This document shows, in pieces, positions 33,455-33,952 of a stretch of 64,000 nt of DNA. Position 1 is the first letter of the stretch. Each line of letters starts with the position of its first letter. The position numbers were made by a program, and so were the translations under genes. Origin of the DNA: Caldilineaceae bacterium (GTDB lineage Bacteria; Chloroflexota; Anaerolineae; Caldilineales; Caldilineaceae); NCBI GenBank assembly GCA_958295845.1, contig OY282376.1, positions 3,113,022 to 3,177,021 on the forward strand, written 5' to 3'. Under the pieces are notes generated by a model. It saw nothing but the letters and a program-made list of their open reading frames with translations. It was not told the origin of the DNA and did not search any database.

Positions 33455-33679
33455 TTCCATTCCTTCTTGCTCTTTCAATTAGGTTCCTAGTCCTGATCTT
33501 AGGCGCGAATCTTTTTATCGATGACTTGAACTGCGCTTGACCTTCGGCCAGCCACTTGAGGCGAATGCACAATCAAGTGCGCATTGTACTGTTCACACGC
33601 ACGGCCCGTGTTCCCTCTGCGCCACTGTTCGCCGGAGCGGTCCGCTGGATGTCGCAATGAAGTGTGCTGATAAGGGATC

Positions 33680-33713
33680 AAAAAAGGCCGCGGGCGGGGT
33701 AGCGCCGGCAGCC
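33680..33713 (-). terminator. Intrinsic terminator downstream of the sORF
   Basis: On the minus strand GGCTGCCGG... pairs with ...CCCGCGGCC (one G-T pair and one mismatch) and is followed by six T residues (A-run 33680-33685 on the plus strand). It lies about 100 bases after the sORF stop and 225 bases before the RIO kinase start. Confidence 0.7.
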
Positions 33714-33811
33714 TCGAAGTCGAGGGGCAGAATATATAGCGGCTAGGCAGACTTCGATTCTTTTCTCTCGCACGGGAGGGGCATCCTCCACGTGCGTTTC
33801 AAGAGAATCAG

Positions 33812-33874
33812 CTAGCTGCGCTCCATATGCAGGCAGTTACCCGTAACACTCTTTTTCTTGTTCACCATTCTCAT
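33812..33874 (-). CDS. 20-residue small ORF with ideal Shine-Dalgarno
   Basis: ATG at 33874-33872, stop TAG at 33814-33812, encoding MRMVNKKKSVTGNCLHMERS. AAAGGAGG ends exactly six bases before the ATG, the best ribosome binding site I see in the window. The product is basic (K-K-K), without membrane character, and carries one cysteine. The start codon lies within a perfect 10-bp inverted repeat whose other arm overlaps the sORF codons for H-M-E. Translation initiation could therefore be sensed or controlled by folding. It may be a leader peptide or a real small protein; no homologue is known to me. Confidence 0.55.
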   Translation of the reverse strand: MRMVNKKKSVTGNCLHMERS

Positions 33875-33952
33875 ATGGAGCCTCCTTTCGCTGACTGGTT
33901 TTTGAAGATTTCTCGCCGGAAAGGGCAAGTAGAGTAGCCTACTTTCGGGTGA

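Follow-up and report, generated by a model that had tools for sequence, protein, structure and literature searches.

The question raised by the locus described here is what role may be played by a small, structured element that lies on the minus strand ahead of a RIO kinase gene in the window, that is, in the whole stretch of 64,000 nucleotides analysed, taken from a 5.4 Mb Caldilineaceae genome whose near relatives are metagenome-assembled Caldilineaceae. The preliminary description of this DNA had proposed that the RIO kinase gene is controlled by translation-coupled attenuation, or else that the element is the self-regulated mRNA of a small protein. The comparisons presented below argue, with good confidence, for a ribosome-mediated transcription attenuator of the rli80-hflXr kind, situated in the RIO kinase mRNA leader.

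The element and its conservation within the genus

Inspection of the minus strand between 33893 and 33680 recovered all of the features of the preliminary description, that is, the Shine-Dalgarno sequence (SD), the 20-codon open reading frame (ORF), the perfect 10-bp inverted repeat that spans the start codon, the hairpins, and the terminator with its six T. The features of the locus, including those added here, are the following:

33981-33953, minus strand: promoter-like site, with a -35 element TTTGCA (33981-33976), a 17-nt spacer, and an extended -10 element TGTTAGATT (33961-33953)
33893-33890 and 33812-33809, minus strand: outer stem, CAGC with GCTG, which encloses the SD and the short ORF
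33888-33881, minus strand: SD AAAGGAGG, which together with the start region makes up segment A (the anti-antiterminator arm)
33881-33872, minus strand: arm GCTCCATATG of segment A, which includes the start codon and forms one half of the perfect 10-bp inverted repeat
33874-33812, minus strand: leader ORF of 20 codons, MRMVNKKKSVTGNCLHMERS*, as read from the sequence
33842-33832, minus strand: segment B GGGTAACTGCC, the proposed antiterminator strand within the ORF, with 33706-33696 as its partner
33829-33820, minus strand: arm CATATGGAGC at the end of the ORF, partner of 33881-33872
about 33800-33765, minus strand: hairpin between the ORF and the terminator
33713-33686, minus strand: G+C-rich C:D hairpin of the intrinsic terminator, followed by a run of six T (33685-33680)
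33706-33696, minus strand: C arm of the terminator, alternative partner of segment B
33460-32357, minus strand: RIO kinase gene, starting at the ATG at 33460 or 33454, the putative regulated gene

The antiterminator pairing, in which the 3' part of the ORF would bind the 5' terminator arm, is an addition of the present analysis. The sequence GGGTAACTGCC also bears a fleeting resemblance to a segment of the 16S rRNA.

The minus-strand RNA has a more stable fold than any of 200 dinucleotide shuffles (z -3.1), while the fold of the plus strand is nearly as good (z -3.1), and the strand was thus assigned by the SD, the ORF, and the T-run, together with the strand of the covariance-model match. The leader is probably transcribed. 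Of 52 leaders, 42 carry a TGnTAnnnT motif in the 170 nt that precede the SD, in comparison with 7 of 52 after shuffling, and a strict sigma-70 scan did not pick up the promoter-like site of the window. The product of the downstream gene matches the Pfam RIO1 domain (PF01163, E 2.5e-37), and also the PA4780-family RIO1-like model of NCBIfam, at an E of 4e-46 that falls under the cut-off of this family.

The preliminary description had suggested a search for the element in related genomes, a comparison of the regions upstream of RIO genes, and checks for covariation and for conserved codons in the short ORF. A DNA search of 61 genomes recovered clear homologues confined to the same genus, in which the element is kept in 15 of the 17 genomes (13 aligned and two divergent). 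It lies directly upstream of the RIO gene in all 13 genomes compared, as well as in the two divergent ones, and in the two genomes of the genus that lack the element (G003 and G008) the RIO gene was not seen either. In the alignment of the genus, once the strands had been corrected, there is hardly any variation in the SD (where there is none at all), the start codon, the start-codon helix, the ORF end, and the terminator. The variable regions are the central portion of the ORF and the hairpin that separates it from the terminator.

Of the helices originally claimed, the start-codon helix and the terminator hairpin are therefore conserved, whereas the 8-bp pairing TCGAAGTC/GACTTCGA and the 11-pair hairpin with its enclosing GATTCT/AGAATC stem are free to vary, and both were dropped for their lack of conservation in this alignment. 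The start-codon helix is paired in 99% of the cells, with one pair changed from AU to GC in G004, where the helix reads CCGUAUG/CAUACGG instead of CCAUAUG/CAUAUGG. The outer CAGC/GCUG stem is paired in 94% of the cells of 13 genomes, with a change from CG to UA on both sides in three of them. The pairing of B with 33706-33696 (B:C) involves 90% of the cells in this genus, as against 28-60% for slid versions of the same helix, and shows almost no covariation, with a mismatch at one pair in eight of the 13 members, so that the antiterminator of the genus rests partly on homology. In four of the 15 members (G009, G013, G011, and G012; loci L012, L011, L053, and L052), the terminator hairpin is followed by a degraded T-run or by none, and their leaders may act by another route.

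A leader type of the Anaerolineae and its regulon

The first covariance model was built from the alignment of the genus, and its weak matches in other genera fell exactly before RIO genes. Comparison of the upstream regions of these genes across the Caldilineaceae and other families of the Anaerolineae revealed the same leader plan, formed by GAAAGGAGGCGC-n-ATG with an SD that hardly varies across the class, an ORF 10-32 codons long, and one or sometimes two terminators. Two tandem terminators stand between the leader ORF and the gene at L079, L092, L093, L184, and L185. The RIO gene is often, though not always, preceded by such a leader in the class; for example, no leader of this type is visible before RIO in the Caldilineaceae genus g16 (G031, G036, G061, and G062; loci L088, L086, L089, and L087).

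Two regions are complementary to segment B (typically GCGCCUGC or GCGCCUCC), namely, the SD region (A) and the terminator's 5' arm (C, typically GCAGGCGC). Three mutually exclusive helices thus recur, A:B between the SD and the 3' end of the ORF, B:C between that same end and the terminator's 5' arm, and C:D, the terminator itself. The leaders were selected by their SD, ORF, and terminator, and not by complementarity, and seven were dropped by eye as wrong calls of the ORF or the terminator. In a swap test of 28 leaders, hand-picked at about one per genus, the leaders' own A:B and own B:C pairings were better than all permutations (0 of 20,000 as good), while 15,013 of 20,000 permutations were as good for the control pairing A:C. 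The test was repeated with 44 further, non-redundant leaders recovered by a second covariance model, R2, which excludes the genus of the window and encodes A:B and C:D, but no B:C. Here again, none of the 20,000 permutations was as good for either A:B or B:C, and the leaders of genes other than RIO, taken alone, gave 6 of 20,000 for B:C and 0 of 20,000 for A:B. Given that R2 contains A:B, the independent result of the repeat is that for B:C.

Pairs were counted in 24 leaders, selected in part for similar length and a clear B, after plain MAFFT alignment. In these leaders, C:D is paired in 95.8% of the cells and covaries, and B:C is paired in 89.6%, with six of its 11 pairs changed on both sides, while A:B, paired in 85.9%, is less strongly supported than the other two. 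Between genera, both A:B and B:C covary. When leaders were tested one by one against shuffles, no more than 60% (A:B) and 48% (B:C) of them had p < 0.05. The intrinsic terminator lies between the ORF and the gene, the antiterminator is exclusive with the terminator, and the anti-antiterminator overlaps the translated region, as is the case in attenuators. Among the R2 leaders, the frame opened by the ATG ends 45-105 nt further on in 96% of cases, in comparison with 11% and 50% for the other two frames, and the stop codon mostly lies 13-25 nt beyond the start of B. A translatable leader ORF of the kind expected in a ribosome-mediated attenuator, with its SD, start codon, and nearby stop, is present on this evidence.

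The sole R2 match in the window covers 33892-33679 of the minus strand (23.9 bits, E 0.0005), and this site is also the top match in the whole genome, though a weak one (E 0.042). A second match in the same genome (C1:12892) was rejected, as it consists of a hairpin and a T-run with neither SD nor ORF. In view of the scant covariation of B:C and the poor T-runs in its genus, the window element is a divergent member of the family, to which it is assigned by its place, its anatomy, its homology through G004, and its R2 match. At E <= 0.05, R2 has matches in 172 of 396 Anaerolineae genomes, often several per genome. Outside the class, three genomes were matched at E <= 0.001 in a sample of 301 from the phylum, which is near noise. 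These matches (G525:C29:200184-200335, G386:C198:26301-26481, and G403:C4:44517-44707; best E 5.8e-6) are possibly real outliers. A simpler search, by the pattern AAGGAGGCGN{40,70}GCGCCTN{25,55}RGGYG, was abandoned, given that its matches were mostly due to chance and that a reversed control also matched many genomes, although it nonetheless pointed to the leaders of RsgA and ABC genes.

The downstream DNA was examined for 60 R2 matches that had not previously been tied to RIO. These matches are followed by RIO (13), RsgA (12), ABC exporters or ATPases (15), GNAT acetyltransferases (9), a TetA(P)-like MFS pump (1), an Xaa-Pro aminopeptidase, PepP (1), or other genes (9), several of which are also GNAT. 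The MFS and ABC names denote resemblance, with scores under the NCBIfam cut-offs. Some of the leaders precede operons that combine RIO or RsgA with TetA(P)-like pumps (L204, L248, L184, L185, L220, and L231), RIO with ABC exporters (L230, L238, and L239), or RsgA with RIO (L223).

Other arrangements were also observed. The RIO operons with TetA(P)-like MFS pumps, ABC exporters, RsgA, or GNAT genes are those of L204, L248, L230, L238, L239, L223, and L228. In several Anaerolineae genomes, a single leader is followed by three tandem GNAT genes (L209, L213, L232, L241, L247, L254, and L262). A small RNHCP-domain protein follows RsgA at L216, L218, L225, and L258 (PF12647, shown for L216).

The proposed switch and its alternatives

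In the proposed mechanism, the region of the SD and start codon would pair with the 3' part of the ORF (A:B), and the same 3' part could pair instead with the 5' arm of the terminator (B:C). In a leader free of ribosomes, A:B would form, and the terminator would then form in turn. During normal translation, the ribosome would reach the stop codon, which usually lies 13-25 nt beyond the point where B begins, and would cover B, which would also allow the terminator to form. A ribosome stalled at the start codon or the early codons would, by contrast, cover A and leave B free to capture C before D has been made, and the formation of B:C would disarm the terminator, with transcription proceeding into the RIO gene.

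Any early stall would suffice for this switch, which leaves the peptide free to drift. Neither a shared arrest motif nor a run of control codons was found in the leader peptides compared, which fits a general sensor of stalling rather than the sensing of an amino acid, and the element is not filed as a member of the trp or erm types for this reason. Given that RsgA, exporters of the ABC and TetA(P)-like types, and GNAT genes are also preceded by this switch, the signal is likely to be the stalling of ribosomes by translation inhibitors or other translation stress. The switch most likely turns its genes on when ribosomes stall, and the presence of efflux pumps and RsgA in the regulon fits induction by drug-stalled ribosomes. 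The attenuation of RIO put forward in the preliminary description is thus supported by the position of the leader before RIO across genera, by its covarying, exclusive helices, and by its recurrence before other genes.

The same three-way switch may also be read in the opposite direction, as a sensor of ribosome supply, in which completed translation would melt A:B, the ribosome would leave, and B would capture C, so that RIO would be on when translation is good and off when ribosomes are lacking. The A:B helix does hide the SD or the start codon, a strong SD would respond to free ribosomes, and both RsgA and RIO are proteins of the ribosome-maturation type. Nevertheless, this reading is unlikely, given that a ribosome terminating 13-25 nt after the start of B, as in most leaders, would cover B, that the efflux pumps and acetyltransferases of the regulon suit stress better than growth, and that the known relatives work by stalling (PMC6310831, PMC12121999).

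Still less probable is a leader that binds a protein or ligand, through, for example, the autoregulation of RIO or RsgA by RNA binding, with the ORF being incidental. While parts of the sequence are conserved within the genus beyond the needs of pairing, the families compared were not seen to share any loop or binding motif apart from the SD, B, and the terminator; the targets are functionally mixed, and the frame of the ORF stays open to just past B in leaders of unrelated sequence.

The mRNA of a conserved small protein, regulating itself through the start-codon helix, was the other proposal of the preliminary description, and might seem favored by the ideal SD and by an ORF length of 20 codons in 11 of 13 genomes of the genus (21 and 25 codons in the other two). 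In G007, however, the ORF is frameshifted, yet still 21 codons long, and the pairwise comparison of codons within the genus revealed no visible coding constraint on the peptide. The differences in the loop codons amount to 280 nonsynonymous and 70 synonymous, and codon positions 1 and 2 differ more than position 3 in the paired 3' part of the ORF. In other families, the peptides are unrelated, and B is read in different frames, as Arg-Leu in some and Ala-Pro in others, which indicates that it is the RNA, and not the peptide, that is kept. The small-protein reading is thus largely refuted, and is highly improbable. A plain terminator with a chance ORF between two unrelated genes is scarcely credible, and is refuted by the swap tests and the pair counts, since, common as intrinsic terminators are and easily as short ORFs arise by chance, the helices covary, the leader persists in G009 and G013, in which no upstream VOC gene was seen, and it recurs before other genes.

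Relationship to known leaders and biological meaning

In attenuators of the trp type, the position of the ribosome sets the alternative helices 1:2, 2:3, and 3:4, a logic that is shared by the Anaerolineae leaders, which, in contrast, lack any series of codons for a single amino acid. In resistance leaders of the msrD/ermC type, stalling is peptide-specific. The similarity in this case is that the RNA is switched by a drug-stalled ribosome on the leader ORF, as in msrD (PMC10314930) and ermC (mentioned in PMC6310831), whereas the peptide of the Anaerolineae leaders is not conserved, and their targets include the RIO kinase and RsgA.

In the rli80-hflXr leader of Listeria, the terminator forms when there is no ribosome or the ribosome finishes, and the antiterminator forms when a ribosome is held on the first codons (PMC6310831). 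The Anaerolineae leaders share with it a leader ORF that overlaps the anti-antiterminator, an antiterminator, and an intrinsic terminator, as well as the control of a ribosome-associated factor, and rli80-hflXr is induced by drugs that target the ribosome (PMC6310831). The 14-codon ORF of rli80 carries an RLR arrest motif (PMC6310831), whereas the Anaerolineae leaders share no arrest motif, and their segment A is the SD/start region itself. Unlike rli80-hflXr, a single type of leader stands here before many unrelated genes across a bacterial class. The toiL ORF upstream of topAI-yjhQ in Escherichia coli is similarly a short ORF that senses several kinds of stalling, including that of tetracycline, which holds ribosomes on start codons and thereby induces topAI (PMC12121999). 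It acts on the ribosome-binding site of topAI and on Rho-dependent termination (PMC12121999), whereas the Anaerolineae leader would disarm an intrinsic terminator directly.

No Rfam family matches the window at the gathering score, and a search of nine other loci at E <= 0.5 recovered four sub-threshold matches, none of which falls at a recognised leader. The literature searched yielded no such leader family, no paper that combines RIO kinases with a leader peptide, or the Chloroflexi with RIO and attenuation, and no study of the regulation of bacterial RIO kinases. The kind of mechanism is already known, while the family, the use of the SD as an anti-antiterminator, and the regulon appear to be new.

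The original observation is confirmed as real, and as larger than described, in that an isolated, odd hairpin becomes a regulatory RNA family of the Anaerolineae, a group with few cultivated members. The balance is tipped slightly in favor of a broader view, in which the class would possess a regulon without a regulator protein, each gene carrying its own stall-sensing attenuator, with the SD as the anti-antiterminator and induction by any early stall, whichever drug causes it, and in which the bacterial RIO kinases would be factors of translation stress or antibiotic protection. The design of such a leader need not rely on a specific peptide, and the shared switch links the bacterial RIO kinases to RsgA and drug efflux, which provides them with a testable function, the response to stalled ribosomes.
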